Assembly: GCF_018283645.1 (NCBI RefSeq)
Contig: NZ_JAGSXH010000050.1
Location: 1-42,663, forward strand
Direction of reading: 5' to 3'
Source of the DNA: Actinocrinis puniceicyclus
Lineage (GTDB): Bacteria > Actinomycetota > Actinomycetes > Streptomycetales > Catenulisporaceae
Length of the DNA: 42,663 nt
Part shown: positions 10,819 to 31,582 of the stretch, piece by piece
How positions within the stretch are numbered: the first letter of the stretch is position 1
Layout of the letters: each line of letters starts with the position of its first letter
Position numbers and translations under genes: made by a program
Notes under the pieces: generated by a model
The model's input: only the letters and a program-made list of their open reading frames with translations
The model's database searches: none
What the model was told of the DNA's origin: nothing

Positions 10819-10826
10819 GGGTTGAC

Positions 10827-11591: not shown

Positions 11592-11619
11592 TGGCGAGGC
11601 GGAAGAAGTGGAGCTGAGC

Positions 11620-12702: not shown

Positions 12703-12725
12703 GCGCGCGTCCAGCGCACTTCCCG

Positions 12726-12777: not shown

Positions 12778-12851
12778 CATTGTTCGAGTACGAGCGTACG
12801 GTGCGCGGTTCCGGCGCGGTCCCGGCGGCCGCGCCGAGGGAGGGTGGGTTG

Positions 12852-13918: not shown

Positions 13919-14632
13919 TCAGACAGGCGGCCAGCTGCGGCGGACGACGTGGTACGGCTCGGTGCCCTCCAGCGCGAGCGCGGCGCGGAATCCCACCGGA
14001 CTTCGCAAGCCTCTGATGCTGAAGGCCTGGCAGAGCGCGCCGCCCGGAACGTGCTCGCCGGTGTCCAGCACCGGCAGGCACAGGCCCTGGGCGAGCCTGC
14101 CGCCGCTGGCCTTCACGCACGCCTCCTTGCGGACCCACAGCGATGCGAACCGGGACGCCGCCCGCTTCGGTCCTCCGGCGGCGACATATCCGGCCTCGTA
14201 CGGCGGGAAGTAGCGTTCCGCGATGCGGATCGCCGCGCCGGCGGCAGGCAGGCTCTGCACATCCACGCCGACCCGCCGGGAACCGGTGAGCGCGAGCATG
14301 GCCACATCCCCGCTTCCGGAAAGGTTCAGCTGCACCGCGCTGGCGGCCCCGGCCCCGGCCCCGGCCCCGGCGCCGTCGAATTCGGGTTTGCCGTGCGGGC
14401 CGATGCGCCAACGCAGTTCGGCGGGCGCGACGCCGAGCTGCCGGCCGAGGATGAGACGCATGGCGGCGTGCGCGACCGTGTAACGGCGCCGTTCGTCGCC
14501 GGAGCCGAAGGATTCGGCGCGCCGCAACTCGCGCGGGTCGAGCAACGCCGCCAGATCGGCGAACGTCGAAACGGCCGCGCCCGCGTCGGTGCGGATCAGC
14601 CAGACCTCAACGGTTTCAGTGCTCGATGACAT
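13919..14632 (-). CDS. 4'-phosphopantetheinyl transferase (Sfp type)
   Basis: 237 residues. Motifs in order: WRIGPHGKPEF, LNLSGSGDVAMLAL, GVDVQ and WVRKEACVKA. It would convert the cluster's apo-ACPs to holo form using CoA. Two family positions are changed: the His of the usual NLSHS is Gly, and the Glu of GxDxE is Gln, while the Asp of GVDVQ and the Glu of WxxKEA are kept. An Ala/Gly repeat (GAGAGAGAG, encoded around 14345-14376) interrupts the region before LNLS. The start ATG 14632 lies inside the end of the aminotransferase gene (17-base overlap). Last gene of the long minus operon. Confidence 0.85.
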   Translation of the reverse strand: MSSSTETVEVWLIRTDAGAAVSTFADLAALLDPRELRRAESFGSGDERRRYTVAHAAMRLILGRQLGVAPAELRWRIGPHGKPEFDGAGAGAGAGAASAVQLNLSGSGDVAMLALTGSRRVGVDVQSLPAAGAAIRIAERYFPPYEAGYVAAGGPKRAASRFASLWVRKEACVKASGGRLAQGLCLPVLDTGEHVPGGALCQAFSIRGLRSPVGFRAALALEGTEPYHVVRRSWPPV

Positions 14633-16076: not shown

Positions 16077-17038
16077 CGGCCGTCGGCTTCCGCCGGCTCG
16101 TCCGCCGGCCCGAACGCGCCACGCAGCCGCCGCGCCGCGTACTGCACGGCCTCGCGGCCCTGGTCGAGCGTTCCCGCCATCGCGAAGAAGCCGTGCGGCA
16201 TGCCCGCGTAACGCCGCACCTCGGCCGGCACCCCGGCCTTGTCCAGTCGCCGCGCATAATGCTCGCCCTCGTCCCGCAGCGGGTCGTACTCCGCGGTGAT
16301 GACCGTGGCCGGCGGCAGACCACTGAGATCGGGCGCGCGCAGCGGTGACGCGAGCGGATCGAGCCCGTCCCGCTCGTCGGCGAGGTAGTGCCGCCAGTAC
16401 CACTGCACCGAGTCGCGGTTGAAGAGCATCGGATCGGCGTTCTCACGCATCGAGGGTGTGTCACCGCCGTACTCGGTGTTCGGGTACACCAGCAACTGGT
16501 GCACGAGCGGCGGTCCGCCGCGTTCCCGGCTCAGCAGCGTGACCGCGGCGGCGAGGTTGCCGCCCGCGCTGTCGCCGCCGACCGCCACCCGCCGCGGGTC
16601 CAGGCCCAGCGTCGCGGCGTTGCCGGCGGCCCAGGTCAGGGCCGCCTGGCAGTCCTCGACGGCCGCGGGGAACGGGTGCTCCGGGGCCAGCCGATACCCG
16701 ACCGACACCGTCGCGCAGCCCGCCGCGTTCGCCAGGCTGCGGCAGATCGCGTCGCAGGTGTCGAGGGTGCCCAGCACCCAGCCGCCGCCGAAGAAGTAGA
16801 CCAGCGCGGGCAGGGCCCCGGCGCGGTCGGGCCGGTGGATGCGTATCGCCAGCTCACCGCCGGGGCCGTCGATCGTATGGTGTTCCACGGCCGCCACGGG
16901 TTCCGGCCGGCCGGCACCCGCGCGGATGTCGGCCAGGTCCGCCGCGCGGGCCTCTTCGAGCGTCATCGTGTACAGCGGCGGGGTACCCGCGGCCTCGCGC
17001 CGCGCGCGCAACGCCGCGGCCTGAGGGTCGAGCGGCAT
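16073..17038 (-). CDS. Alpha/beta hydrolase of the HSL/esterase family
   Basis: 321 residues. The catalytic triad is S157 in GGDSAGGN, D252 in AEYDPLRDEGE and H282 in MPHGFF. The oxyanion motif normally HGGG reads FFGGGW, with Phe at the His position. The family hydrolyses esters or thioesters of small acyl groups. Placed between E1 beta and the aminotransferase, it could release an acyl group from CoA or ACP, comparable in position to the thioesterase PglD of phenylglycine operons, although PglD belongs to a different hydrolase group. The start is ATG 17038, 39 bp after the E1 beta stop. Confidence 0.85.
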   Translation of the reverse strand: MPLDPQAAALRARREAAGTPPLYTMTLEEARAADLADIRAGAGRPEPVAAVEHHTIDGPGGELAIRIHRPDRAGALPALVYFFGGGWVLGTLDTCDAICRSLANAAGCATVSVGYRLAPEHPFPAAVEDCQAALTWAAGNAATLGLDPRRVAVGGDSAGGNLAAAVTLLSRERGGPPLVHQLLVYPNTEYGGDTPSMRENADPMLFNRDSVQWYWRHYLADERDGLDPLASPLRAPDLSGLPPATVITAEYDPLRDEGEHYARRLDKAGVPAEVRRYAGMPHGFFAMAGTLDQGREAVQYAARRLRGAFGPADEPAEADGR

Positions 17039-17077
17039 CGTCGTATCACCGATCCCTGATTCGTCCGGGGGCGTGGT

Positions 17078-18049
17078 TCATCCGTGCTCCTTCGCGACCG
17101 CGCGCACGGCCTGCCGCAGTTGCTCCGCGTTCGGCTGGAGCGCGCGGTCCAGCGCGAGGGCGAACGGGAGCACCGCGCCGTCCGGCCGGGTGATCCGGCG
17201 CGGCGGGGCGATCAGCCGCGACTCCTGCGCCGCGCTCGCCACGACCTCCGCGCCGATCCCGCAGCTGCGGTTGGAGTCGTCGATCACCACCAGCCTGCGC
17301 GTCTTGGCCAGCGAGAGGCTCAGCGCGGGCCAGTCGAACGGGTAGAGCGTGCGCGGATCGAAGACCTCGATCGACACCTCTTCGGCCAGTTCCGCGGCGA
17401 CGGCGAGCGCGGTGTGCACCAGATGGCCGACCGCCACCACGGTCACGTCCGTGCCCTCGCGGTGCACGCGCGCCGCGCCGAGCGGGACGGCCTCCAGCTC
17501 CCGGGTGACGTCCTCGCGGACGCTCATCGCCGCGGACGGTGCGAAGAAGACGACCGGATCGGGGTCGCGGATGGCGGAGGCGAGCAGGCCGTACGCGTCC
17601 GTGGGCGTGGCCGGGACCACCGTCTTCACGCCCACGTGCGCGAACAGGCTGTAGGGATGATCAGAGTGCTGACCCGCCCAGCCCTCGCGCGATCCGGAAC
17701 CGGGCACGACGTACGTGATCGGCGCGGCGGCCTGCCCTCCCGTCATCAGGCTGATCTTGTGTGCCTGGTTCGCGATCTGCTCGAAGACCAGGAACAGCAG
17801 CGAGGGGATCTGGAACTCGACCACCGGACGCCGGCCGCACAGCGCGGCGCCGAGCGCGAGCGAGGTGAACGCCTGCTCGGACAGCGGCAGGTCCACCACG
17901 CGGTCGCGGCCGAACCGGTCCTGCAGGCCGAAGGTGAGCCCGGCCATGCCGGCGCCGACGTCCTCGCCGAAGACGCACACGGCCGGGTCCGCCTCAAGCG
18001 CGTCAGCCAGCGCGCGATTGAGGGCCTTGGCATAGGAAAGAAGGCTCAC
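17078..18049 (-). CDS. 2-oxoacid dehydrogenase E1 component, beta subunit
   Basis: 323 residues of the transketolase-like E1 beta family. Recognisable parts are VFGEDVG near the N-terminus, DLPLSEQAFTSLALGAAL, VEFQIPSLLFLVFEQIANQA, GQHSDHPYSLFAHVGVKTVVP and EVFDPRTLYPFDW. With the alpha subunit it would decarboxylate a 2-oxoacid on thiamine diphosphate. The GTG start overlaps the alpha-subunit stop (GTGA, 18046-18049). No E2 (lipoyl acyltransferase) or E3 gene is present. Among pathway relatives, PglB/PglC of streptogramin phenylglycine synthesis also lack a neighbouring E2. Confidence 0.9.
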   Translation of the reverse strand: MSLLSYAKALNRALADALEADPAVCVFGEDVGAGMAGLTFGLQDRFGRDRVVDLPLSEQAFTSLALGAALCGRRPVVEFQIPSLLFLVFEQIANQAHKISLMTGGQAAAPITYVVPGSGSREGWAGQHSDHPYSLFAHVGVKTVVPATPTDAYGLLASAIRDPDPVVFFAPSAAMSVREDVTRELEAVPLGAARVHREGTDVTVVAVGHLVHTALAVAAELAEEVSIEVFDPRTLYPFDWPALSLSLAKTRRLVVIDDSNRSCGIGAEVVASAAQESRLIAPPRRITRPDGAVLPFALALDRALQPNAEQLRQAVRAVAKEHG

Positions 18050-19170
18050 GGCAGCGCTCCCGCCCGCGGACGCAGCCCGCTCGCGTAGAGGAAGTCGCAG
18101 GCTCCCGACGGATCGGGCGTCGCGCTGCCGAGCGCGAACTCGCGTGCGTCGTCCAGTTGCGCGGCGACCTGCGCGTCGATCGCGGCGCGCTCCGCTTCTG
18201 CGTCGGCCAGCGCCGCGGCCGCCGACTCCAGCGGGTCTCGGGCCCGCCAGGCGGCGATCTCCTCGGCGGTGCGGTAGGCGAGGCGGAACCGGCGCTCCAC
18301 GGTGTGGTGCCCTTCGAAGCGGTAGGTCCGGCATTCCAGGAAGACCGGGCCGCGCCCGGCCCGGGCGCGGCCCGCGGCCGCGCTCGCCGCGCCGCGCACC
18401 GCCTCCACGTCCATGCCGTCGACTTCGAACGCTGCGACTCCGAAGCCGCACGCGCGTGCCACCGCGCTGCCCGCGACCGCGGCGGCGGCCGGCAGCGTGG
18501 TCGCGTAGCCGTTGTTCTCACAGACGAACAGCAGTGGCAGCTTCCAGATCGCGGCCAGGTTGAGCGTCTCAAGCAGCACGCCCTGGTTCAGCGCGCCGTC
18601 GCCGAAGAACGCGGCCACCACCCGGTCCGCGCGCGCCTGCTTCGCCGCCCACGCCGCGCCGGCCGCGATCGGGACCCCGGCGCCGACGATCCCGTTCGCG
18701 CCGAGGATCCCCAGCCGCAGGTCGGCGGCGTGCATGGATCCGCCGCGGCCCCGGTTCGACCCGGTCACGCGACCGGCCAGCTCGGCCAGCAGCAGGCGCG
18801 GCGGTACTCCCTTCGCCAGCACGTGGCCGTGTCCGCGGTGGGTGCTGGTGATCTGATCGCCGGGGCGCAGCGCGGCGCACACGCCCACCGCGACCGCCTC
18901 CTGCCCGATGTACGGGTGGGTTCCGCCGACGATGTGCCCGGACCTGACCAGCTCCAGCGCCAGTTCCTCGAAACCCCGGATGAGCCGGATCATCCGGTAC
19001 CTGGCCGCCGGGGTGTCCAGCGGCTCGACGGATCGGGCCCCGGCGGAAGGCGGATCAGTGGACTGTGGATCAGCGGTCTGTGGGTCGACGGTCTGTGGAT
19101 CAGCGGTCTGTGGGTCGACGGTCTGTGGGTCGACGGTCTGCGGCGCTCGATCGTCCAGCGCCCGGGTCAT
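18046..19170 (-). CDS. 2-oxoacid dehydrogenase E1 component, alpha subunit
   Basis: 374 residues. The thiamine-diphosphate motif is FFGDGALNQG through CENN (190 onward), and THRGHGHVLAKG and GSMHAADLRLG are typical of E1 alpha. Residues 11-40 are a tail of DPQTV/DPQTA units encoded by 15-bp tandem repeats (about 19050-19140); the conserved part begins near residue 53. The ATG overlaps the stop of the oxygenase gene (19167-19170). Possible roles: a phenylglycine-type oxidative decarboxylation, conversion of an arylglyoxylate to an aroyl starter, or a branched acyl starter supply. Substrate is not evident from the sequence. Confidence 0.9.
   Translation of the reverse strand: MTRALDDRAPQTVDPQTVDPQTADPQTVDPQTADPQSTDPPSAGARSVEPLDTPAARYRMIRLIRGFEELALELVRSGHIVGGTHPYIGQEAVAVGVCAALRPGDQITSTHRGHGHVLAKGVPPRLLLAELAGRVTGSNRGRGGSMHAADLRLGILGANGIVGAGVPIAAGAAWAAKQARADRVVAAFFGDGALNQGVLLETLNLAAIWKLPLLFVCENNGYATTLPAAAAVAGSAVARACGFGVAAFEVDGMDVEAVRGAASAAAGRARAGRGPVFLECRTYRFEGHHTVERRFRLAYRTAEEIAAWRARDPLESAAAALADAEAERAAIDAQVAAQLDDAREFALGSATPDPSGACDFLYASGLRPRAGALP
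19056..19145. repeat. 15-bp tandem repeats encoding the DPQT tail of E1 alpha
   Basis: Five to six copies of a 15-bp unit (for example GTCGACGGTCTGTGG and GATCAGCGGTCTGTG variants on the plus strand) encode repeated DPQTV and DPQTA in frame. The repeat sits in the first 45 codons of the E1 alpha gene, before the conserved domain. Because the unit is a multiple of three, copy-number changes would keep the frame. Confidence 0.85.
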
Positions 19171-20096
19171 CGAGCCGCGTCCCAGATCACCGGGCAGAAC
19201 TCCGGGTCCGCGTAGTCGGGCTCGCCCTCAGCCGTACGGCGCACCAGCACATCGTGGTTGTACACCACCGGCGTGCCGTCCGGCCGATCGTAGCGCCGGT
19301 ACCGGTTCTCGCCGTCCTGCAGGTGCAGCGAGACCGCACGGCGCGGAACCTCGGCGAGGTTCGGGCCGCTGCCGTGGTACACGCGGCAATGGTGGAAGCT
19401 GACATGCCCGCGCGGGATCTCGACCGGGACCTTGCGAAGCTCGGCGCCGTTGTACTGCGCGTTGCGCTCCAGCAGCCGCTCCAGTTCGCCGCGGTCGCGC
19501 TGGGCGAAGTGCCGGCTGGAGTCGTCCCCGCCCGGGGCCTCCCGCCACCGGTGACTGCCGTCGATCATCGTGATCGTGCCCATGCGCTCGTCGCAGTCGT
19601 GGAACGGGATGAACGCGGTGAGCATCCGGTCCGAGCTACAGGTCTGCCAGTAGTGCCGGTCGAAGTGCCAGGGCACCAGGTTGCTCGGCTCCCGCGGGTT
19701 CGGCGGCTTGTAGATGAGCGTGGCCTGGAACACCCTGATCCGCTCGGCCTCGGCCAGCGCCGCGGCGACGGCGCCGAGCAGCGGCTTGCGCAGGATGCGT
19801 CCGGCGGTTTCGCACTCGTAGTGGATGTAGTCGTTGTGCCGCTGCACCGGTCCGTGCTCAGACCGCCAGGCGGCCAGGTTCGGCGGGCGCACCGGCAGCT
19901 CGCGCTCGCGCAGCCCCTCGTAGAACTTGTCGGTCGCGTCCTGCAACTCGTCGAGTTCGTCGTCGGTGAACAGGCGGCGGCCGGACAGGTACCAGCCGTG
20001 CTCCGCGTACCAGCGCACCTCGTCGGCGGTCGGCAGCGCCGCACGCTCCTGAGCACTGAGACCGTACGACGCGGCGATCTGCTCGGTGTCGATCAT
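19167..20096 (-). CDS. Phytanoyl-CoA dioxygenase (PhyH) family Fe(II)/2-oxoglutarate oxygenase
   Basis: 309 residues. The iron ligands are probably H144 and D146 in PWHFDRHYW and H241 in YHGSGPNLAEV, and the 2-oxoglutarate-binding Arg lies in PRRAVSLHL. Members hydroxylate amino acids, acyl-CoA, or carrier-bound substrates in natural-product pathways. ATG 20096 is preferred over GTG 20099 because the GGGGG Shine-Dalgarno sequence is then 6-7 bases away. It lies 15 bp after HmaS and overlaps E1 alpha, so it works in the same operon. Its substrate is unknown; aromatic or acyl hydroxylation are both open. Confidence 0.87.
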   Translation of the reverse strand: MIDTEQIAASYGLSAQERAALPTADEVRWYAEHGWYLSGRRLFTDDELDELQDATDKFYEGLRERELPVRPPNLAAWRSEHGPVQRHNDYIHYECETAGRILRKPLLGAVAAALAEAERIRVFQATLIYKPPNPREPSNLVPWHFDRHYWQTCSSDRMLTAFIPFHDCDERMGTITMIDGSHRWREAPGGDDSSRHFAQRDRGELERLLERNAQYNGAELRKVPVEIPRGHVSFHHCRVYHGSGPNLAEVPRRAVSLHLQDGENRYRRYDRPDGTPVVYNHDVLVRRTAEGEPDYADPEFCPVIWDAAR

Positions 20097-20111
20097 CACT
20101 TCCCCCTCTTT

Positions 20112-21089
20112 TCAGCCGTTGGCGGCGGAGCGCTGCCGCTCGACCGCCTCATACAGGGCCTTGATGTTCGCGGTGCCGAAACCGGCCGCGCCGCGCCGCT
20201 CGATCAGTTCGAAGAAGAAGGTGCCGCGCGGGTGGGTGGAACGGGTGAAGATCTGGAACAGCCGGCCGCCGTGGTCCTGGTCCATCAGGATGTTGAGCTC
20301 GCGCAGGGTGTCCACGGGGATGTCGGTGCCGCCGAGGCGCTCGGCGAGAGCGTCGTAGTAGGTGTCCGGGGTGCTCAGGAAGCCGACGCCGCGCTGCGCC
20401 AGAGTCCGCACCGAGCAGGCGATGTCCCCGGTGCGCAGTGCCAGGTGCTGCACTCCCGGGCCGCCGTGCGCCGCGAGAAAACCGTCGATCTGACCGGGGG
20501 CGCGGTCGGTGTCCGGTTCGAGCAGGGTGAAGGTCACCGTGTTGGACGGGCTCTGCACCACGACCGAGTCCATGCCCTGTTCGCCCACGGACACGTACTC
20601 CGCGAACGTGCGCGCGAAGCCGAGCGCCTGCTCGCAGAAGCGCACGGTGTCCTTCAACTCCCCGGCGGGCACGCACAGCGCGACGTGGTCCACGAGCCAC
20701 GGTTGAGCGCCCGCCGCGAAGTCCGCGAAGTGCGCGGCGGCGCCCGGCTCGACGAAGCTCAGGGCCACGTCGCCGAACCCGGCGACAGTGCGCTGCGCGG
20801 CGTCGATGACATCGGCGCCCGAGCCGACCGCGCGGGCGTAGTCCTCCTGCGGGTCTTCGCAGCCGAGCGCGATGACGGCCACGCCGTCGCCGTGCCGCTC
20901 CACGTACTGCTGTGCGCGGTTGCCGGGCGCGGCCTCGGTCAGCACGAGGCTGATCCCGCCGAGGCCGAGTTCGGCCCCGCCCCGCGAGCGGCGGCGTGCC
21001 ACGAATCCGTAGTCGTGGATCAGCCGCTCGGCCGCGGCGTCGGCGTCCTGCACGTGGAACTCGGTGTGCGCGATCCCCAAGATCGCCAT
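20112..21089 (-). CDS. hmaS: 4-Hydroxymandelate synthase-like dioxygenase (HPPD superfamily)
   Basis: 325 residues. Iron ligands are H135 (LVDHVALC), H215 (GVQHLALR) and E294 (FFFELIERRG). HPPD has a P-x-NEP segment in the active-site wall; here it reads TFTLLEPD followed by APGQIDGF, the pattern I recall from glycopeptide hydroxymandelate synthases. The C-terminal NIKALYEAVE also fits. HmaS converts 4-hydroxyphenylpyruvate to 4-hydroxymandelate. ATG 21089 has GGGAGGG five bases upstream. A mandelate oxidase gene (25366) and an HpgT-type aminotransferase gene (14616) in the same cluster support HmaS over a tyrosine-catabolic HPPD. Phenylpyruvate as substrate cannot be excluded. Confidence 0.85.
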   Translation of the reverse strand: MAILGIAHTEFHVQDADAAAERLIHDYGFVARRRSRGGAELGLGGISLVLTEAAPGNRAQQYVERHGDGVAVIALGCEDPQEDYARAVGSGADVIDAAQRTVAGFGDVALSFVEPGAAAHFADFAAGAQPWLVDHVALCVPAGELKDTVRFCEQALGFARTFAEYVSVGEQGMDSVVVQSPSNTVTFTLLEPDTDRAPGQIDGFLAAHGGPGVQHLALRTGDIACSVRTLAQRGVGFLSTPDTYYDALAERLGGTDIPVDTLRELNILMDQDHGGRLFQIFTRSTHPRGTFFFELIERRGAAGFGTANIKALYEAVERQRSAANG

Positions 21090-21132
21090 GTTTCCCTCCC
21101 TAGATCGCGATGTACCGGCGGTGGGCGCCGGA

Positions 21133-21897
21133 TCATCCATCCCCCGCGACGTACAGCGCAACAGCGCGGTCCCCGGCTGCGCCCGGGACGGTGCCTTGTT
21201 CGACCGCCAGCACCAGCGCCTCCCGCGCGTCGCCGTCGCCGATCAACACGGCGGCCGCGGTCAGCGCCTCGGCCAGGGACAGCCGGCAGGTCTGCTCCGG
21301 GGTCTCGCCGCGCCCGGTCGCCGCCGGACCCAGACTGATCACGGGTCCGGCCAGCCCCCATCGCGCCGCGACGTGTCCGAGCACGGCGTTCGGGTTGGAC
21401 TGGAAGAACAGCAGGGGCGGCACCCGTGCGCCGGCGGCCACCGCCTCGGCGAGCGCGCGCGCCGTGCCCTGGTCGCCGCCCGCGCTGGCGAGCAGGATGC
21501 CGACGCCGGCGGCGCGCCGCGGCTCGGCGGCCGGCGGCTCGCCGAAAACCTGCCGCAGGCAGCGCTCGGCGACCTCGATCACGAGCGGATTGAAGCTGGA
21601 GACGATGAAACCCGGGACCGCGGGCGGCGCCGCGCCGTCGTCGGCCGGCTCCGGCCAGCACGCCCGCGCCAGCACCCGCAGGGAATCGGTCGCCGCCGCG
21701 CTTCGGACCGCCGAAACGACGGGCGCTGACTCCCAGGGCGCTGAGTCCCAGGACCCTGATTGCCAGCGCACCGAATCGGCGGGCGCCGAGTCTACGGGCG
21801 CCGAGTCTACGGGCGCCGAAACGGAGGGCGCTGATCCTACGGGCGCCGTGTGCGTGTGTTCGGAAACTGCCTGCACCGGCCCGGTCCCCACGGTCAC
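21133..21897 (-). CDS. Half-length ketosynthase-like protein (Ketoacyl-synt_2 type), no active-site Cys
   Basis: 254 residues, about the N-terminal half of a ketosynthase. Residues 18-65 are a repeat-derived linker (SAPVDSAPVDSAPADS). Residues 92-250 follow the ketosynthase fold; FFQSNPNAVLGHVAARWG and LAGPVISLGPA match the stretch that leads to the nucleophile, but the Cys motif is absent and the His motifs would be in the missing half. Similar short proteins accompany ketosynthases in aryl-polyene-type clusters as chain-length-factor-like partners. Its GTG overlaps the stop of the KS gene (GTGA, 21894-21897), which supports a KS partner. A truncated, inactive remnant is the alternative. Confidence 0.65.
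   Translation of the reverse strand: MTVGTGPVQAVSEHTHTAPVGSAPSVSAPVDSAPVDSAPADSVRWQSGSWDSAPWESAPVVSAVRSAAATDSLRVLARACWPEPADDGAAPPAVPGFIVSSFNPLVIEVAERCLRQVFGEPPAAEPRRAAGVGILLASAGGDQGTARALAEAVAAGARVPPLLFFQSNPNAVLGHVAARWGLAGPVISLGPAATGRGETPEQTCRLSLAEALTAAAVLIGDGDAREALVLAVEQGTVPGAAGDRAVALYVAGDG
21720..21845. repeat. 15-bp imperfect tandem repeats encoding the SAPVD linker
   Basis: Units such as GGGCGCCGAGTCTAC and GGGCGCTGAGTCCCA recur every 15 bases across this interval, encoding DSAPV, ESAPV and related pentapeptides in frame near the N-terminus of the half-length ketosynthase-like protein. Two adjacent copies near 21781-21812 are identical. It resembles the arrays in E1 alpha and in the aminotransferase tail. 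Confidence 0.8.
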
Positions 21898-23030
21898 GCG
21901 GCACCGACCAGCAAGGCGGTATTGGCGCCGCCGAAGGCGGAATTAACGCTGAGCGCATAACCCGGGCGGGCGGCGCGCGCCTCGCCGAGCACCAGATCGA
22001 GCCGGCATTCAGGGTCCTGCTCCAGAAAGCCGGCGTTGACCGGCAGCCGTCCCGTATTCAGCGCGAGCACGGTGACGATCAGTTCCAGCAGCGCCGACGC
22101 CTCCAGGGCGTGTCCATGCACCGATTTGGTCGAGCTCACCGGCAGGCGCTCGACGCCGTCGCCGAAGACCCGGCGCAGTGCGGCGGCCTCGGCTGGGTCG
22201 GCCAAGGGCGAGCCGGTCGCGTTCGCGTTGACGTACGCGATCTCTTCCGGCGCGGCCCCGGCGCGGCGCAGCGCCATACCGATCGCACGGGCCAGTCCTT
22301 CGCCGTCCGGGCGCGGCCTGCACACGTGATACGCGTCACCGGCGCCGCCCCACCCGGACAGCCTCGCCAGCGGCTCGACGCCGCGCCGACGTGCCGCGCC
22401 GACGGCTTCGAGCACGACGGCGGCCACGGCGTCGCCGAGCAGCAGACCCCCGCGACCCTTGCTGAACGGGCGGGCCGCACCGTCACGCGACAGCGCCCGC
22501 CCGGCGTCGAAGACGGCGAACGTGTCGGGTTCCACCAGATATCCCGCCGCGACGACGACCCGCTCGTGTCTGCCCGCGCGGATGTGCGCGGCGCCGTCGG
22601 CGACTGCCGTACTGGACGCGACACAGGCGCCCGTGTACACCCGGCACGGCGGTTGCGAACCGAACCGTTCCGCGATGCCCTCCGCCACCTGACCGGTGAC
22701 GTCTGCGATCCTCAGGTCGCTGTGCACGGCGAGCAAGACAGGGGTCTGCGCCACGACCCCGCTTGGCTCGGCGTCGCGGTCGAGCCGGGCGCGCCGCAGC
22801 GCGCCGCCGATGACCTCGACCAGTTCTGACGCCAGTCCGTGGACCTCAGGCAGCTGCGCCGCATGACCGGTGCCGGTGCGAGACACATCGAACCGGGTCA
22901 CCGGTCCGAACGCCGGGCGGCCGGCGAGTACGGCATCGAAGAGAGCCTCGGGCCCGCGTCCGCAACCGCTGACGACGCCGATACCGGTGATGCCGACCCC
23001 GCGCTGCGGCCGGGTGTCAGTGTCCGCCAT
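21894..23030 (-). CDS. Beta-ketoacyl synthase with Asn in place of the first catalytic His
   Basis: 378 residues, FabF/KSalpha-like. The nucleophile is C136 in YTGACVASST and the second His is H307 in STKSVHGHALE. The first His motif, normally NAHGTGT, reads VNANATGSPLAD, so N270 replaces His. A Cys-Asn-His site may still self-acylate but decarboxylation could be weakened or changed. The gene is coupled to the half-length ketosynthase-like gene downstream and follows an ACP gene by 9 bp, so the three look like a minimal KS, partner and ACP set. It may act as an acyltransferase or a specialised condensing enzyme. Confidence 0.85.
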   Translation of the reverse strand: MADTDTRPQRGVGITGIGVVSGCGRGPEALFDAVLAGRPAFGPVTRFDVSRTGTGHAAQLPEVHGLASELVEVIGGALRRARLDRDAEPSGVVAQTPVLLAVHSDLRIADVTGQVAEGIAERFGSQPPCRVYTGACVASSTAVADGAAHIRAGRHERVVVAAGYLVEPDTFAVFDAGRALSRDGAARPFSKGRGGLLLGDAVAAVVLEAVGAARRRGVEPLARLSGWGGAGDAYHVCRPRPDGEGLARAIGMALRRAGAAPEEIAYVNANATGSPLADPAEAAALRRVFGDGVERLPVSSTKSVHGHALEASALLELIVTVLALNTGRLPVNAGFLEQDPECRLDLVLGEARAARPGYALSVNSAFGGANTALLVGAA

Positions 23031-23039
23031 CCGAGTTAC

Positions 23040-23297
23040 CTACCGCCCCGCATCCGCCGGCGCGGCCGTGGTCAGAACACTGTTCAGCACGTCGAGTGCG
23101 TCCGTGACCGTCGCGATACGGGCCAGGTGCGCCTCGCTCAGTTCGAGCACCACCGCGTAACGCTGTTCCAGTTCGGTCACCAGCCAGGTCAGTTCGAGCG
23201 AGCCGAGCGTCTCGTCCACGCTCCGCGGGTCGCGGCCGCCGAGCGCCGCGATGATCTCGACCAGTTCCGACCGCTCGAGCAGCGGCGCGCGGCTCAC
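23040..23297 (-). CDS. Discrete acyl carrier protein (ACP-4)
   Basis: 85 residues. The helix II motif is ETLGSLELTWLVTELEQRYAV with S33 as the phosphopantetheine site. It precedes the altered ketosynthase gene by 9 bp and probably supplies that enzyme. The GTG start overlaps the stop of the small ORF upstream (GTGA, 23294-23297) and has no good Shine-Dalgarno sequence of its own, so its translation may depend on that of the small ORF. Confidence 0.82.
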   Translation of the reverse strand: MSRAPLLERSELVEIIAALGGRDPRSVDETLGSLELTWLVTELEQRYAVVLELSEAHLARIATVTDALDVLNSVLTTAAPADAGR

Positions 23298-23461
23298 CGA
23301 GCGCTACCTATGGCCCGGTGTGCAAGACCACTGGTTTGGTGTGACAAGCCGCCGCCCCGGTGCGAAAGTCCGCGCCGAGACGGCCCGGACGGCCCGCGCC
23401 GCGACGGCAGCGGAAGTGAGAACGCCCAGTGACGTGGTAATGAAGACAGCTGATCCCGCAT
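23294..23461 (-). CDS. Small ORF, 55 codons, strong ribosome site, coupled to ACP-4
   Basis: ATG 23461 is preceded by AAGGGGAGGAA with 3-6 bases of spacing, the best ribosome site of this operon. The frame ends in a TGA that overlaps the GTG of ACP-4. The peptide starts MRDQLSSLPRHWAFSLPLPS and continues as a basic Arg/Gly/Ser/His-rich tail (RRGLSHRGGGLSH). Codon 8 is TTA, rare in such genomes. Third-position GC is lower than in neighbouring genes, so the peptide itself may not matter. It could be a leader that sets translation of the ACP-KS genes, or a small protein. I recognise no family. Confidence 0.5.
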   Translation of the reverse strand: MRDQLSSLPRHWAFSLPLPSRRGPSGPSRRGLSHRGGGLSHQTSGLAHRAIGSAR

Positions 23462-23488
23462 CGGTTCCTCCCCTTTGTCGATGGTCGA

Positions 23489-23506
23489 AGCGTCGCCGGG
23501 GACGCT
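23489..23506 (-). other. Short hairpin between ligase stop and small ORF
   Basis: AGCGTC and GACGCT form a 6-bp stem with a 6-base loop. It starts at the last base of the ligase stop codon and ends 28 bases before the small ORF start. There is no T run, so termination is doubtful; it could stabilise the upstream or downstream RNA segment. Confidence 0.35.
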
Positions 23507-24927
23507 CAACCGCCGGCGGCCTCGGCTGCCTTCCGCAGGCCCGCCGGATCGCGCAGCAGCTTGCCGGTCGCCGTGCGCGGCAACGCCGGCAGCACACGCA
23601 GGTGTCTGGGTTGCTTGTAGGACGCCAGTTCCTGCCCGAGCCGCCGGCGGACCGCCTCGGCGCTCGTTGCGTCCGCCAGCGCGGCGTACGCCGTGATCAC
23701 GCCGTCTTCGAACACGATGACGGACTCGGCCACGCCCGGAAGCGAGCCGAGGGTGTGCTCGACCTCGGTCAGATCGACCTTCAGTCCGCCGATCGAGACC
23801 TGCGAGTCGTTGCGGCCGAGGATCACCACGCGCCCGCCGTCCTGCGCGCGCGCCGCGTCGCGAGTGTGCAGCCAGCCGTCCGACCAGCGCGCCGGATCCG
23901 TGGCGCCTAGATACGGCGACGCGGGCATCAGGATATGGAGCTCGCCGTCGCGCACCTCCAGGCAAAGCCCCGCGGTCGGTTCCACCGCCGGATGCAACTC
24001 GCCGGTCAGGTCGGTCGCGATGACCCCCAATTCGGTCATCCCGTACATCGTGCCGAGCGGCACGCCGTACCGGGCGGCGAACGCCGCGGGCACGCCCGGT
24101 CGCACCAGCTCGCCGGCAACGATCATCCGTGCGAAGTGGGGAAGGCCGGGCGGTTGTGCGACGCCGGAGAGCAGTTCGGCGTAGAAGGGCACGCCGATCA
24201 CGGTGGTCGGCCGCTGGTCCCACGAGACCGCGTCCAGGATCCCGGCCGCGGTGAGCCGTTCCGGCAGCACCAGCTCGACGCCGGCGTGCAGCGCGTGCAA
24301 CAGCCCCCCGACCAGGCCGAGCACGTGCACCATCGAGGCGAGCAGCACGATGCGTTCGCCGCGGCGCGGAAACCGAGGCAGCAGCGCGTAGCGTCCGAGC
24401 TCTGCTTCGAGGTCGGCCGCGGTGCGCCCGATGACCTTCGAAGGGCCCGTAGAACCGGAGCTGAGCTGGATCAGCGCGTGCCCGGTCTCGGCGGGCCGTC
24501 CCCGGCGCAGCGCCGTGGCGACCGGCTCCACGTCGGCGTATCCGCGCAACGCCGCGCCGCCCGGCGCCTTGGTCCCCTGCACGAGCACCTGTGGGGCGAG
24601 CCGGTCCAGCGCGCGGCGCACCTCCGCTTCGGCGAGGCGGTGATCCAGCAGGCTGACCTGTCCGCCGAGCCGCCACGCGGCCAGCAGCGTGGCCACGTAG
24701 CCGGGGGAGGGCGGCAGGCACAGCGCCACCGTGCCGCCGGCGGCCAGACCCGCGTCCGCCAACTGCCGCTGCCGTTCGGCGACCTGGGCGCGCAGAGTGC
24801 CGCGGTCGCACGGCCGGCCGAAGCGCAGACAAGGGTCGTCCTCGCCGCCGGAGAGCAGGACCCGATCGACCCACGCGCCTTGCTGCGGGCCGGTCTGCGC
24901 GCTGCTGCTCAAAAGACTGGTCAACAC
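23506..24927 (-). CDS. Adenylate-forming ligase (stand-alone A-domain or acyl-CoA ligase type)
   Basis: 473 residues, shorter than most acyl-CoA ligases. Motifs: phosphate loop LSSGSTGPSK, MYGMTELGVIATD, HTRDAARAQDGGRVVILGRNDSQV with the ribose-binding Asp, and the catalytic Lys in RTATGKLLRD. It would activate an acid, such as an aryl acid or amino acid made by this operon, for loading onto an ACP or CoA. It is the first gene of the long minus operon. The start is uncertain: GTG 24927 lies only 2 bases after GGAG, and the TTG three bases further on would have better spacing. A promoter with an operator lies about 140 bp upstream. Confidence 0.82.
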   Translation of the reverse strand: MLTSLLSSSAQTGPQQGAWVDRVLLSGGEDDPCLRFGRPCDRGTLRAQVAERQRQLADAGLAAGGTVALCLPPSPGYVATLLAAWRLGGQVSLLDHRLAEAEVRRALDRLAPQVLVQGTKAPGGAALRGYADVEPVATALRRGRPAETGHALIQLSSGSTGPSKVIGRTAADLEAELGRYALLPRFPRRGERIVLLASMVHVLGLVGGLLHALHAGVELVLPERLTAAGILDAVSWDQRPTTVIGVPFYAELLSGVAQPPGLPHFARMIVAGELVRPGVPAAFAARYGVPLGTMYGMTELGVIATDLTGELHPAVEPTAGLCLEVRDGELHILMPASPYLGATDPARWSDGWLHTRDAARAQDGGRVVILGRNDSQVSIGGLKVDLTEVEHTLGSLPGVAESVIVFEDGVITAYAALADATSAEAVRRRLGQELASYKQPRHLRVLPALPRTATGKLLRDPAGLRKAAEAAGG

Positions 24928-24980
24928 GACTCCACGGCTCAGCTCGTCGAGCGTCGGTGGCGGGGCTGGACTGCGCTCAA

Positions 24981-25025
24981 GGCGGATCCCCCCACGGCGG
25001 ATCCGTTCAAGGCGGACCCGTTCAA
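24981..25025. repeat. Three 15-bp tandem repeats in the leader of the long operon
   Basis: Units start at 24981, 24996 and 25011: GGCGGATCCCCCCAC, GGCGGATCCGTTCAA and GGCGGACCCGTTCAA. They lie between the predicted promoter (25066-25095) and the ligase start, so would be in the untranslated leader. Function unknown. Confidence 0.8.
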
Positions 25026-25065
25026 AGAAAGGGGTGGATCCGGCGGCGAGGTCTCGCGCGGCCCG

Positions 25066-25095
25066 AGCCTGTCACTTCCGTCACACCCGAGTCAA
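25066..25095 (-). promoter_or_regulatory. Predicted promoter of the long minus operon
   Basis: On the minus strand TTGACT (25095-25090) and CAGGCT (25071-25066) are separated by 18 bases, close to the actinomycete vegetative consensus. Its -35 box overlaps the last two bases of the palindrome at 25094-25109, so a protein bound there would block it. It would drive the ligase and, by coupling, the genes down to the phosphopantetheinyl transferase. Confidence 0.5.
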
Positions 25096-25109
25096 TGGTC
25101 TAGACCATT
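25094..25109. promoter_or_regulatory. DasR-type (dre-like) GntR-family operator
   Basis: AATGGTCTAGACCATT is a perfect 16-bp palindrome. Its core TGGTCTAGACCA is the known core of DasR-responsive elements, the operators of the GlcNAc-controlled GntR/HutC regulator of actinomycetes. It lies in the 438-bp gap (24928-25365) between the divergent ligase and mandelate-oxidase genes and overlaps the -35 box of the ligase promoter. I saw no second copy in the window. Binding by another HutC-type regulator is possible. Confidence 0.7.
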
Positions 25110-25365
25110 TTGGGCGGTGGTCCGGCCGGGCGCCGGGGAACCGCGCCTGTCGGCGACATGATCGAGGCGCCGCGGTCGTGAAAGTTGCACCGGTCCATGC
25201 GCCACAGGCCACTGATCCGCAAGCGGCAAGCGGGTTTCGGCACTGAATCCGTGCCGTTGCGTTGACTTCGCCACGCCCCCGGCGCGAGAGTCGGACCCCG
25301 CGCCACGGCGAGCGCGGCCGCGACGCGATGCCCGGCCGCATCCGGGTGCCCGAGAGGGGGGGAGT

Positions 25366-26448
25366 GTGTCGCAACCGCTCACGCTCGAAGAGTTCGAGCA
25401 TCAGGGCTCTGCGCGTATGCCACCGGACGTTCGCGACTACATCGGCGGTGGCGCGGGCCGGGAACAGACCCTCGCGGCCAGCCGTGCCGCGTTCGACCGT
25501 TTCGCCCTGCGGCCGCGCGTACTGGTCGACGTGCGCGCGCCGGACCTTTCGGTCCGGCTGCTCGGTACGTCGCTCGCCGCGCCGATCGGGGTGGCTCCCA
25601 TGGCCTTCCACCGGCTGGTGCATCCGGACGGAGAGCAGGCGACGGCGCGTGCGGCCGGCGCCGCCGGAGCACTCTTCGTCACGAGCATCTTCGCCAGTCA
25701 GAGCCTTGAGGACATCGCCGCGGCGGCGAGCGGGCCGCTGTGGCTCCAGCTCTACTGGCTGCGCCGCCGCGAGGCGCTCGCCGACCTCGCGCAGCGGGCC
25801 GAGGCGGCCGGATATCGAGCCCTGATGCTCACCGTGGACGCCGCGCGGGTCGCACGCCGACTGCGCGACGTGCGCAACTCCTTCAGCGTTCCGCCGCACA
25901 TCCGCGCGGTCAACCTCGACGCGGCGCTGCCCGAGATCGCGGCCTACGGCGCCGCGGGCATCTCGGCGATCGAAGCGCACTCGCGCGACCAGTTCGACGC
26001 CGCGGTCACCTGGCGGGACCTGGAGTGGCTCACCTCGCGCACCCGGCTGCCCCTCGTCCTCAAGGGCGTGCTCACCGCCCAGGACGCGCTGCTCGCCGCC
26101 GAACACGGCGCCGCGGCCGTCGTCGTCTCCAATCACGGCGGCCGGCAGCTCGACGCGGCGGTGCCCGGCCTCATCGCGCTTCCCGAGATCACCGACGCGG
26201 TCGCGCACCGCATCCCGGTGCTCTTCGACGGAGGCGTGCGCTGCGGCGCGGACGCCGCGAAGGCGCTGGCCCTGGGCGCGCGCATCGTCCTGGTCGGCCG
26301 GCCGGTGCTCTGGGGCCTGGCCTGTGCGGGCCGCGACGGAGCCGCCGCCGTGCTCAAGCTGTTGCGCGACGAACTCGAAGAGGTCATGGTCCTGTCCGGA
26401 CGGCCGAAACTCGCCGACTTCGGACGCGACGCCGTCGTCGAGCTATGA
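25366..26448 (+). CDS. hmo: FMN-dependent 2-hydroxyacid oxidase, 4-hydroxymandelate oxidase-like (Hmo)
   Basis: 360 residues, the usual length of the glycolate/lactate/mandelate oxidase family. K233 (LVLKGVL) and the catalytic H257 with Arg in SNHGGRQLD are present; the N-terminal IGGGAGREQTL block and PIGVAPMAFHRLVHPDGE are also family-typical. The segment ARRLRDVRNSFSVPP resembles the Hmo of glycopeptide clusters (RRLRDMRNGF, from memory). It would oxidise (4-hydroxy)mandelate to the glyoxylate that the aminotransferase uses. The GTG start has a G-rich ribosome site right before it. It is alone on the plus strand, divergent from the long operon, across the dre-like site. Confidence 0.86.
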   Translation: MSQPLTLEEFEHQGSARMPPDVRDYIGGGAGREQTLAASRAAFDRFALRPRVLVDVRAPDLSVRLLGTSLAAPIGVAPMAFHRLVHPDGEQATARAAGAAGALFVTSIFASQSLEDIAAAASGPLWLQLYWLRRREALADLAQRAEAAGYRALMLTVDAARVARRLRDVRNSFSVPPHIRAVNLDAALPEIAAYGAAGISAIEAHSRDQFDAAVTWRDLEWLTSRTRLPLVLKGVLTAQDALLAAEHGAAAVVVSNHGGRQLDAAVPGLIALPEITDAVAHRIPVLFDGGVRCGADAAKALALGARIVLVGRPVLWGLACAGRDGAAAVLKLLRDELEEVMVLSGRPKLADFGRDAVVEL

Positions 26449-26502: not shown

Positions 26503-26688
26503 CCAGGTCACCCGATGTACCGGTCGTTGTGGCCTCAGGTTTCGAATTCACTTTGATCGTGGCGTGCGTTGGTGCAAAGCTGCTACAAAGTCATGGGCCG
26601 GGCGGCCCGTCGGGGTCATAACATGAGTGCTCGTCTCATTCGCCGGGCACCGCTGGCGGGTCATATCCACAGCGTGGGGGAACCGAAC

Positions 26689-28299
26689 GTGCACAAGCGC
26701 CAGTCCGCGGTCTGCGCCGCGGTCGCCGGGATCGGGATTCTCGTCCCGGCGACGGCGCACGCGGACTCCGCCGCCGACTCCGTCAAGGCGTTGCCGGTGA
26801 ATGCGTTGTCGAACAGGCCGCTGTCCGCCCCCGCGCTGCTCCCGCCGGGCCGCACCGCGGCTCGCACGGTGCGGACGCACGCGGCCGGACCGCTCTCCCC
26901 GAGCCTGAGATTCAGTGATGTGGGCATGCTCAGCGTGGCGGGCTTCGCCGCGGACCAGAACTGGATCGCCGGCACCTCCTACTCCTTCGACTTCGGCGAC
27001 GGCAGCGCACCGGTGAGCACTTCCGGAAGTGCCGTCAGCCACAGCTACTCGAAGCCCGGCACCTATCCCGTCACCCTGACCGAGACCGACCCGGCCGGTG
27101 ACTCCGCGACCGTCACCGCGCCGTACACGACCAGGGGCACGAACTTCAGCCCGTATGGACCGACCCGGCTGCTCGACACGCGCAACGGGACCGGCGCGCA
27201 GCAGGGTGCCGTCGCGCCCGGCGACACGATCAGGCTCAAGGTCGCGGGGGTCGGCTCGGTTCCGGCGAACGCCGCGGCGGCCGTGCTGAACCTGACCGTC
27301 AACTCGCCGACGGCGGCGGGCGTCATCACCGCTTACCCGGACGGCGACCGCGCCGCACCGGGCACCGCGAGCGTCGACTTCGCCGCCGGGCAGACGGTCG
27401 CCACGCTCGCGGTGGCGCAGCTCGGCGCCGACGGCACGGTGGACCTGCTCAACAACAGCTCCGGCACCGTGCAGGTGATCGCCGACATCACCGGCTACTT
27501 CACGCCGGCCGCCGCGGCCGGCTACACCTCGCTCTCGCCGGTGCGCCTGCTGGACACGCGCAAGGGCATCGGAGCGCCGGCCGGCGTCGTCGGCGCGGGC
27601 AAGGCGGTCACGCTGACCATCGCGGGCGCGGACGGCGGCCAACTGCCCGGCTCCGGCATCACGGCCGTCGCGCTCAACGTGACGGCCACCGGCACACTGG
27701 GCACCGGCTATGTCACCGCCTACCCGGACGGCACCACCCGGCCGGCGACCTCGAACGTGAACTTCACCGCCGGCCAGGTCGTGGCGAACACGGTCATCGT
27801 CCCGGTCGGCAGTGACGGGAAGATCGACCTGTACAACTCGAGCACCGGAACGCAGATCATCGCGGACGTCGACGGCTACTTCAGCGCGGGCGGCACGAAC
27901 GCCTACCTTCCCATGGACCCTGACCGCATCGACGACACCACCTCGGACGGCTGGGGCCCGATTCCCGGCGCCGGGGTGCGGGAACTGGGCCTCATCTACA
28001 CCGCCGATCCGGACACCGGCGACCCGGTCCCGATGGCGCTCGGCATGAACGCGTTCGTCATGACCACCACCGTGACCAACACCGCGCAGAGCGGCTATCT
28101 GACGGTATATCCGTTCGGCGTGACGCGGCCCGTCGTGTCGAACCTCAACTTCGCAGCCGGCCAGACGGTCGCCAACCTCTCGCTGGCCACCGCCGGCACG
28201 GACGGCGCGCAGAACGTCAAGGCCGTGGACTACTACAACGGCACCTCAGGCTACTTCGACGTCAGGACGGATCTGACCGGGGTCTTCGGCACTTATTAG
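26689..28299 (+). CDS. Secreted protein with PKD domain and LDTR repeat modules
   Basis: 536 residues. A signal peptide (VHKRQSAVCAAVAG, IGILVPATAHA) follows the GTG at 26689, which has GGGGGAA upstream. A PKD domain follows (YSFDFGDG, HSYSKPGTYPVTLTETD). The rest consists of three modules of about 115 residues, each beginning GPTRLLDTR or SPVRLLDTR and ending near IADITGYF or IADVDGYF; the third is degenerate (MDPDRIDDTT). PKD domains and these modules occur in extracellular actinomycete proteins and probably bind surfaces or polymers. No catalytic domain is seen. The modules are shared with the S53 peptidase encoded 136 bp downstream. Confidence 0.8.
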   Translation: MHKRQSAVCAAVAGIGILVPATAHADSAADSVKALPVNALSNRPLSAPALLPPGRTAARTVRTHAAGPLSPSLRFSDVGMLSVAGFAADQNWIAGTSYSFDFGDGSAPVSTSGSAVSHSYSKPGTYPVTLTETDPAGDSATVTAPYTTRGTNFSPYGPTRLLDTRNGTGAQQGAVAPGDTIRLKVAGVGSVPANAAAAVLNLTVNSPTAAGVITAYPDGDRAAPGTASVDFAAGQTVATLAVAQLGADGTVDLLNNSSGTVQVIADITGYFTPAAAAGYTSLSPVRLLDTRKGIGAPAGVVGAGKAVTLTIAGADGGQLPGSGITAVALNVTATGTLGTGYVTAYPDGTTRPATSNVNFTAGQVVANTVIVPVGSDGKIDLYNSSTGTQIIADVDGYFSAGGTNAYLPMDPDRIDDTTSDGWGPIPGAGVRELGLIYTADPDTGDPVPMALGMNAFVMTTTVTNTAQSGYLTVYPFGVTRPVVSNLNFAAGQTVANLSLATAGTDGAQNVKAVDYYNGTSGYFDVRTDLTGVFGTY

Positions 28300-28435
28300 C
28301 CGACCACCGGCGGACCGCCTTGTTGTCGCCCACAGGCTCCGGTGCTTCGGGACGGATTCCCGAGGCGTCCGGTTTCGCCGCTCCCGAGGGGGGACGGCGG
28401 CTTACAGCACCACCGCACGAGACTTGGGGATTCAT

Positions 28436-31400
28436 GTGAACAAATCCAGCAGCGCGGCGCCCGGGGAGCCTTACCAGGCCTCGCCCCGGCGCGCGCGGCG
28501 GACGGCCATCCCGGCTGTCGCCGTGAGCCTCGCGGTCGGCGCGGCCCAGGTGGCGCTCGCGGCGCCCGGCCACGCGGCGGCGCCCGTCCGGGTCGCCGTC
28601 GGCGGCGCGCCCACGGTGCCGCACAGCGCCAAGGCCGCCGCGGCTCCGGCGGACTCGACGAAGCTCAGCATCGACATCGAGCTCAAGACGCCGACCTCGG
28701 CCCAGTTGCCCGCGCTCGCCGCGGCGCTCAACGATCCGAAGTCGCCGAACTACCACCACTTCCTGGCCAAGGGGCAGATCGCCCAGCAGTTCGGTGCCTC
28801 CGCGGCCGAAGTCGCGGCCGTGGACGCCGCGCTCAAGGCCGCGGGCCTGACCCCGGGCCCGGTTTCCGCGGACGGCCTCTTCGTTCCGGTGACCGCCACG
28901 GTCGGCCAGGCGAAGAACGCGTTCGGCACCGGCTTCGCGGGTTACCGCTACGCCGGCCGCGCCGTCTACGCGAACACCAGCGCGCCGAAGTTCGACGCCG
29001 CGGTCTCGGCGGACATCGCCGGGGTCGTCGGTCTCGACAACATCGCGTACGCGGTGCCGCACCACGTCACCTCCGGCAAGCAGGCCAAGAGCACGGTGCA
29101 GTCCTCCGCCGTCAAGTCCCACGCCGCGGTGAAGTCGAACACGGTGCAGCCGAACTACGCGGTACCGACGTGCTCGAACATCAACACGATCTACAACAGC
29201 CCGTCGTTCAACCTGCACGACGGCACCAACTACTACACGGCCGACGTTCTGGCCAACATCTACGGCACCGGTTCGCTGCTCAACGGTGGCAACAACGGCT
29301 CCGGCGTGACCGTCGCGGTCTTCGAGCTCGAAAGCTACGACCCGGGCGGCTTCAACGACCTGAAGAACTGCTACGGCATCTCCACCCCGATCAGCCAGGT
29401 CTCGGTCGACGGCGGTCCGACCGCCCAGCCCAACATGTACACCGGCGTCGGCATCGAGTCGGCGCTCGACATCGAGAACATCGCCACCATGGCGCCCGGC
29501 GTCTCGATCATCGACTACGCCGGTCCGGACTGGAACCTGAACTCCACCACCGACACCCAGGTGCTGGACACCTACAACCGGATCGTCACCGACGACTCCG
29601 CCAAGGTGATCTCCAGCAGCTGGGGCCAGTGCGAGGCGCAGGCCAACCCGTCCACGATCTCCGCGGAGAACTCCATCTTCTCCGAGGCGGCGATTCAGGG
29701 CCAGACGGTCATCGCGGCCTCCGGCGACTCCGGCGACACGGGCTGCTACGACCCGACCGCCACGTCACCGGACAGCGAGCTGTCCGTGGACGACCCGGCC
29801 AGCCAGCCCTTCGTGCTCGGCGCGGGCGGCACCACCATGCACGGCCTGACCAACAACTCGATGGTCGAGTCCGCGTGGAACTCGGTGCAGACCGACGGCA
29901 ACGGCCACTACTACTACGGTGCGACCGGCGGCGGTGTCTCCACGAACGCGGCGCCGTCGTTCCAGCAGTACGTCACCGCGGCCGGATACTCGGCGCACTG
30001 CGCCGCGGCCGCGACCAGCGGCTGCCGTCAGGTTCCTGACGTCGCCGCGCTGGCCGACCCGGCGCAGGGCTACGTCATCGACGAGTACTACTACGACGGC
30101 AACCCCGCCGACACCGGGAACTACTACAACATCATCGGCGGCACCAGTGGCGCCGCACCGGTGTGGGCGGCGATCTACGCCCTCGCCGACGCCAGCGCCG
30201 CATGCCAGGCCGGCACGCCGGCCGGTCAGGCGGCCCCGGCCCTCTACAAGGCCGCCAAGACCCCGGACAAGTACTCCGTCTTCCGCGACGTGACCGCGGG
30301 CAACAACGGCATCTCCGCTTACAACGCGGCTTACAGCTACCCGGCGAACGCCGGCTACGACATGGCGACCGGCTGGGGCTCCCCGATGGCGCCGGGCGTC
30401 GTCGCCGTCGCCTGCGCGGGCAGCGTCGAATCCGCGGCGAGCTACTACGTGCCGAACGGCCCGACACGCATCCTGGACACCCGGTACAACATCGGTGGCG
30501 CCGGCCCCGTCGCGGCGAACGGCGGCACGGTCAAGCTGCAGATCACCGGTCAGAACCACGTCCCCGCCTCGAACGTCACGGCCGTCGTGCTCAACGTGAC
30601 GGCGACCGCGACCCACGCCACCGGCTACGCAGTCGTCTACCCGGACGGCAGCGCGATGCCGGCGACCTCCAACCTCAACTGGGTCGGCGGGCAGGTCGTG
30701 CCCAACCTGGTCACCGTGCCGGTCGGCGCGGGTGGCAAGGTGGACCTGGTCAACGAGTCCGGGGGCACCGTGCAGTTCATCGCGGACCTCGCGGGCTACT
30801 TCACGACGGACTCCACCAGCGCCTCCACCTACACGGCAGTCGGTCCGGTCCGGGCGATGGACACCCGTCACGGGATCGGCGTCCCGACGGGCAAGGTCGG
30901 CTCGACCAGCACCGTCAGCCTCCCGGTCGGCGGCACCACCGTCGGCTCCGTGACGATTCCGTCCGGAATCAGCGCGGTGGCGATGAACGTCACGGTGACC
31001 GCCCCGACCGCGAGCGGCTACGTGACGGTCTACCCGAACCAGGACGCCGCGGGTAACCCGGTGACCCGGCCCACCGTCTCCAACCTCAACTTCTCGGCGA
31101 ACCAGGTCATCGCGAACATGGTGATCGTCCCGGTCGGCAAGGACGGCAAGGTTGACTTCTACAACGGCAGCGGCGGTCCGACCGACCTGATCGCCGACGT
31201 GGCGGGTTACTTCACCGTCGGCACCGCGGGCGCGAAGTACCACGCGCTCGGCCCGGACCGGCTCGTGGACACCCGCATCGGCCTGGGCACCTCCGGACCC
31301 GGCACCCTCGGGGCGAACGGCACTCTCGGTCTGCCGCTCCCGGCCAGTGCCACGGCCATCCTGGCGAACGTGACGGTGGCGCAGGCGACCGCGACCGGCT

Positions 31401-31582
31401 ACCTGACCGCCTACCCGGCGGCCTCCACCCGGCCGGTCGTGTCGAACCTGAACTTCACGCCGGGCGTGTCGGTGCCGAACCTGGCGATCGTGCCCAACAG
31501 CGGGCAGGTCGACTTCTTCAACGGCTCCGGCGGCACGGTCCGGGTGATCGTCGACCTCGGCGGTTACTTCAGCGCCAGTTGA
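28436..31582 (+). CDS. Secreted S53-family (sedolisin/kumamolisin-like) peptidase with LDTR repeat modules
   Basis: About 1048 residues. Start GTG 28436 with GGGGA upstream; the signal peptide has an Arg-rich start (SPRRARRTAIPAVAVSLAVG). The pro-domain follows (SPNYHHFLAKGQIAQQFGAS). Catalytic residues fit sedolisins: E341 and D345 in VGIESALDIEN, D431 in AASGDSGDTG and S571 in GGTSGAAPVWA. After the catalytic domain come three LDTR modules (30460-31580), starting GPTRILDTR, GPVRAMDTR and GPDRLVDTR. S53 enzymes are acid-active endopeptidases that mature by cutting off the pro-domain. The modules likely anchor the enzyme to a surface or polymer. Confidence 0.9.
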   Translation: MNKSSSAAPGEPYQASPRRARRTAIPAVAVSLAVGAAQVALAAPGHAAAPVRVAVGGAPTVPHSAKAAAAPADSTKLSIDIELKTPTSAQLPALAAALNDPKSPNYHHFLAKGQIAQQFGASAAEVAAVDAALKAAGLTPGPVSADGLFVPVTATVGQAKNAFGTGFAGYRYAGRAVYANTSAPKFDAAVSADIAGVVGLDNIAYAVPHHVTSGKQAKSTVQSSAVKSHAAVKSNTVQPNYAVPTCSNINTIYNSPSFNLHDGTNYYTADVLANIYGTGSLLNGGNNGSGVTVAVFELESYDPGGFNDLKNCYGISTPISQVSVDGGPTAQPNMYTGVGIESALDIENIATMAPGVSIIDYAGPDWNLNSTTDTQVLDTYNRIVTDDSAKVISSSWGQCEAQANPSTISAENSIFSEAAIQGQTVIAASGDSGDTGCYDPTATSPDSELSVDDPASQPFVLGAGGTTMHGLTNNSMVESAWNSVQTDGNGHYYYGATGGGVSTNAAPSFQQYVTAAGYSAHCAAAATSGCRQVPDVAALADPAQGYVIDEYYYDGNPADTGNYYNIIGGTSGAAPVWAAIYALADASAACQAGTPAGQAAPALYKAAKTPDKYSVFRDVTAGNNGISAYNAAYSYPANAGYDMATGWGSPMAPGVVAVACAGSVESAASYYVPNGPTRILDTRYNIGGAGPVAANGGTVKLQITGQNHVPASNVTAVVLNVTATATHATGYAVVYPDGSAMPATSNLNWVGGQVVPNLVTVPVGAGGKVDLVNESGGTVQFIADLAGYFTTDSTSASTYTAVGPVRAMDTRHGIGVPTGKVGSTSTVSLPVGGTTVGSVTIPSGISAVAMNVTVTAPTASGYVTVYPNQDAAGNPVTRPTVSNLNFSANQVIANMVIVPVGKDGKVDFYNGSGGPTDLIADVAGYFTVGTAGAKYHALGPDRLVDTRIGLGTSGPGTLGANGTLGLPLPASATAILANVTVAQATATGYLTAYPAASTRPVVSNLNFTPGVSVPNLAIVPNSGQVDFFNGSGGTVRVIVDLGGYFSAS

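Follow-up and report, generated by a model that had tools for sequence, protein, structure and literature searches.

A perfect 16-bp palindrome, AATGGTCTAGACCATT, lies at positions 25094-25109 (strand unassigned) of the window, the whole stretch of 42,663 nucleotides analysed here, and represents a candidate DasR-responsive element (dre) with the core TGGTCTAGACCA at 25096-25107. It is very probably the dre of the GntR/HutC repressor DasR, which would keep an 11-gene operon repressed until amino-sugar phosphates rise, and production by the cluster is probably released on amino-sugar build-up. This proposal is built on an operator, a promoter geometry, a DasR orthologue, an amino-sugar regulon and a conservation pattern that were all found directly, and from these it extends to binding, repression and sugar response. 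The window thus appears to harbour a conserved, candidate DasR-controlled cluster. That DasR controls antibiotic clusters is already established; the new elements are the conservation of the predicted dre across Streptomycetaceae and the family of the window's host, the second putative operators in relatives and the dre-free sister clusters.

The biosynthetic operon and its neighbours

The operon consists of 11 co-directional minus-strand genes, running from 24927 down to 13919, most of which overlap or are separated by a few bases; a gap of 208 bp divides the first gene from the second. That first gene encodes an AMP-binding acyl/aryl ligase (23506-24927), whose orthologues stand first in this operon in relatives and whose start is likelier the TTG at 24924, located after GGAG, than 24927. 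It is followed by genes for an acyl carrier protein (ACP; 23040-23297, assigned by position and orthology, without a Pfam match), a ketosynthase or chain-length-factor-like protein (KS/CLF; 21894-23030), a small ketosynthase N-terminal-like protein (21133-21897, without a Pfam match), a 4-hydroxyphenylpyruvate dioxygenase/hydroxymandelate synthase (HPPD/HmaS) family protein (20112-21161; TIGR01263, above cut-off) and a phytanoyl-CoA dioxygenase (PhyH) family oxygenase (19167-20099). The remaining genes encode the E1 alpha (18046-19170) and E1 beta (17078-18049, start approximate) subunits of a 2-oxoacid dehydrogenase, an alpha/beta hydrolase (Abhydrolase_3; 16073-17038), a PLP aminotransferase (14616-16080, start approximate) and, finally, a 4'-phosphopantetheinyl transferase (13919-14632). 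An FMN-dependent 2-hydroxyacid (hydroxymandelate-type) oxidase gene (25366-26448, plus strand) is divergent from the operon and shares with it the intergenic region that holds the dre, an arrangement also seen in Kitasatospora clusters.

The cluster in the window combines a KS/CLF pair, ACPs and the HPPD/HmaS, FMN hydroxyacid oxidase and aminotransferase families, which would be expected in a type II PKS-like cluster with a hydroxymandelate-type precursor pathway. A literature search on the product retrieved type II PKS-like relatives (cispentacin, avenalumic acid and kitacinnamycins) and no matching cluster, and plasmids searched with the PhyH protein yielded distant matches only. None of the genes in the window was recognised as a regulator; as the window is the whole contig, this holds for the contained part of the cluster, and a regulator may lie beyond the contig ends. 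Since the contained part has no recognised regulator, the structural genes would be direct targets of DasR. The block of methyltransferase, glycosyltransferase, ABC and NDP-sugar genes at 8082-13859 is 67-74% identical to the dre-free sister clusters L071 and L072, and the hydroxymandelate oxidase/AMP-ligase side (13919-26448) is arranged like the dre-bearing Kitasatospora branch. The cluster thus looks like a mosaic of these two parts. The adjoining stretch at 26569-31582 encodes two large secreted proteins in which 'GPTRLLDTR...' segments recur; one contains a PKD domain, and the other is a kumamolisin-type (S53) protease.

Scoring of the operator

The palindrome was scored with a 16-bp matrix built from the 38 dre sites of Streptomyces coelicolor in Table 1 of PMC4398421, a source independent of this genome. 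It reaches 27.2 bits, a value that rests on a matrix from a family other than that of the window's host, and exceeds each of the 38 published sites, which score 15.1-23.5 bits on leave-one-out. The second-best site in the window obtains 6.6 bits from the same matrix. Compared with the dre consensus A(G/C)TGGTCTAGACCA(G/C)T, the site agrees at 14/16 positions. A simulated genome matched in dinucleotide composition, which is less A+T-rich than real upstream DNA, yielded about 0.13 sites per Mb in the range of 17-18 bits, and no site of 19 bits or more occurred in 8 Mb. In published work, no failure of a high-scoring predicted dre to bind DasR in vitro is on record (PMC4398421).

Counting the 12-bp core across the genome was considered as evidence and dropped, as signal and control were not separated. 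The exact core occurs three times in the 6.77 Mb genome against once for the reversed control, and with one mismatch allowed there are 28 copies against 26, that is, no excess. The core alone is thus not significant by counting, and the 16-bp matrix was used in place of the counts.

The promoter and the position of the operator

The operon promoter lies on the minus strand at 25066-25095, with a -35 box TTGACT (25095-25090), a spacer of 18 bp and a -10 box CAGGCT (25071-25066). The palindrome shares two bases with the -35 box, its 12-bp core abuts the box, and some 170 bp separate the dre from the first gene of the operon downstream. An earlier note, made from the letters alone, had described a perfect dre-type operator overlapping the -35 box of a good promoter that reads into ten or more genes. 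The operator, its overlap and the gene count are borne out. As for the promoter, the pair is present and is the only one in the whole intergenic region under a relaxed promoter pattern; a stricter sigma-70 scanner does not call the pair because CAGGCT is a weak match to TATAAT. Plus-strand transcription running across the operator to the oxidase gene was also considered, and the plus strand shows no promoter-like pair.

With the core at about -37 to -48 relative to an expected start near 25059, a DasR dimer on the palindrome would lie next to the -35 box. There it would block the access of RNA polymerase to the promoter and hold the 11-gene operon repressed, possibly together with the divergent oxidase gene. 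Layered control is conceivable, as at the dptEp promoter of the daptomycin cluster, which is targeted by six regulators (PMC9404778), and DasR might then activate the promoter or affect it little while other global regulators dominate. However, a steric block classically involves this placement next to the -35 box, which is kept across lineages, and such an outcome is considered unlikely. Repression by DasR is thus retained as the preferred reading.

The DasR orthologue and the amino-sugar regulon

The genome encodes eight UTRA-domain proteins, of which the one at 16733-17440 on contig C18 is the best (UTRA 153 bits) and represents the DasR orthologue. Its protein aligns over the full length to the DasR crystal structures PDB 4zs8/9i0v (E 1e-125), and it combines the N-terminal GntR helix-turn-helix and C-terminal UTRA domain of the HutC subfamily, being DasR-like throughout. 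The gene and a solute-binding protein gene diverge from an intergenic region that contains two dre sites (24.0 and 25.0 bits), the same arrangement as dasR-dasA in S. coelicolor. Pattern searches of the genome, allowing up to two mismatches, revealed further dre sites of 19-25 bits before a nagA-type amidohydrolase gene on the contig of dasR, a GH18 chitinase gene and solute-binding protein genes. With such sites at dasR, the nagA-type gene, the chitinase gene and others, the genome looks as if it carries a complete amino-sugar regulon, and the window dre is the top scorer among the regulon sites examined. The DasR homologue and the genomic dre sites that the earlier note proposed to look for are thus present, and the absence of any DasR/HutC regulator, named there as refuting, is not the case. 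Its reading of the site as a DasR operator is supported.

Some sites lie outside amino-sugar metabolism. Dre-like sites precede the genes for acetyl-CoA synthetase (25.0 bits) and citrate synthase (21.1 bits), and a weaker one of 14.9 bits lies between genes resembling acetate kinase and phosphoketolase (loci L020, L017 and L099, on contigs C66, C33 and C277). Acetate metabolism in this organism may therefore be within the reach of DasR.

A second HutC regulator, closest to YvoA/NagR, is encoded on contig C33 (positions 1414-2193 of locus L005), divergent from the PTS gene crr. HutC proteins have GT-N-TA-N-AC operators in common. The paralogue could read similar DNA, and its protein matches YvoA/NagR (E 3e-47) and DasR (E 2e-45) almost equally. 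It could thus be this paralogue that mainly reads the window operator, the signal still being an amino-sugar phosphate; this is improbable, however, as the best dre at its own gene scores 11.3 bits against two of 24-25 bits at dasR. Moreover, the genome of Kitasatospora CB01950 (L056) retains the conserved site with DasR as sole match, no paralogue reaching E 1e-30.

The effectors of DasR are GlcN-6-P and GlcNAc-6-P, both of which release it (PMC9404778, PMC12680351). Supply of GlcNAc or breakdown of chitin would raise GlcNAc-6-P or GlcN-6-P, DasR would leave the operator, and the cluster would be expressed.

Conservation in related clusters

Orthologous clusters were fetched by similarity of the CLF or AMP-ligase protein, and the operator played no part in their selection. 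A dre at the same promoter was found in ten clusters, one from S. tateyamensis, one from a genome of the host's own family (G003, cluster L070) and eight from Kitasatospora, the last hence not independent of one another. In all ten, TGGTATAGACC stands directly before the TTGAC box upstream of the AMP-ligase gene and scores 17.7-19.3 bits. When five diverged lineages (the window, L070, L054, L055 and L063) are aligned without gaps, the columns of the core TGGT[CA]TAGACC are almost invariant, and the flanking columns mostly agree in just two or three of the five. Furthermore, DasR occurs in 9/9 genomes examined and is 78-87% identical in the other eight.

Each of the ten comparison clusters carries a second dre (18.8-21.4 bits), which has no counterpart in the window. 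In Kitasatospora and S. tateyamensis it lies before ABC exporter genes and is doubled in L054; in G003 it is found in a divergent KSIII/glycosyltransferase region (L070:6155, 19.9 bits). Strains with the cluster and two dre sites include Kitasatospora griseola JCM 3339 and K. cheerisanensis KCTC 2395. A functionless chance palindrome, to which the genomic core counts near control would point, is highly implausible against a score far over background, a position on the promoter and conservation in independently fetched clusters, each with its second site. Additionally, a dre of 18.5 bits (AGTGGTGTAGTCCACA) lies near but outside a related Streptomyces cluster (L073:795-810). Among the papers covered by a literature search, none deals with control of a Kitasatospora cluster of this kind by DasR.

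Not all related clusters carry the site. The sister clusters L071 and L072 possess the same set of AMP ligase, ACP, CLF and KS genes, with a methyltransferase gene in the divergent position, and contain no dre above 9 bits in 20 kb. At the remaining AMP-ligase loci examined, largely sister clusters, all sites are below 12 bits, and a rearranged Actinacidiphila cluster (L059), without an AMP ligase at this place, has no dre. The signal therefore belongs to one cluster branch and not to the gene family, and the control is not universal in the wider cluster family. Genome G003 contains two related clusters, L070 with two dre sites and L072 with none. The dre-free sister clusters thus offer a natural comparison, including L070 against L072 within one genome.

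Implications

That the cluster forms a dedicated arm of the chitin/GlcNAc response is a tentative idea, held with rather low confidence. On this reading, the biosynthetic operon and the exporter or tailoring promoters would have stayed under DasR in Kitasatospora and the host's family while gene content was reshuffled, and the product might act where chitin or cell wall is degraded, for example against fungi or competing bacteria. The predicted control also provides a concrete candidate elicitor (GlcNAc, chitin or removal of dasR) for a cluster common to Kitasatospora and the host's family. Moreover, it would represent a clear case of a near-consensus dre placed directly on a structural biosynthetic promoter and kept between families.

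Comparison with known systems

NagR/YvoA of Bacillus subtilis, likewise a repressor of the HutC type, controls amino-sugar genes and has an operator whose core is similar. In the present genome the paralogue on contig C33 is the NagR-like one, whereas the gene lying amid dre sites is the DasR orthologue. The core regulon of S. coelicolor (nag, pts, das and chi) has the same 16-bp dre in a near-promoter position (PMC4398421); however, its target is amino-sugar catabolism, whereas the window site, which outscores the catabolic sites, stands before a secondary-metabolite operon. In the act and red systems of S. coelicolor the amino-sugar signal is tied to antibiotic genes, as proposed for the window. 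There, DasR acts via the pathway regulators actII-ORF4 and redZ, whose dre sites are weaker (10.49 and 12.44 on the scale used in that study; PMC4398421), while direct action on structural genes is predicted here.

The closest precedent is the daptomycin dptE operon of S. roseosporus, which belongs to a cluster without its own regulator and is directly repressed by DasR (PMC9404778). In both cases DasR would act directly on a core structural operon. Nevertheless, the dptE operon has a poor dre (AGTGGTTTGGTCCGCC) at +72 to +87, downstream of the start, whereas the window presents a near-consensus palindrome against the -35 box. Unlike that of dptE, a dre of the window type is conserved across genera and accompanied by a second site in relatives.
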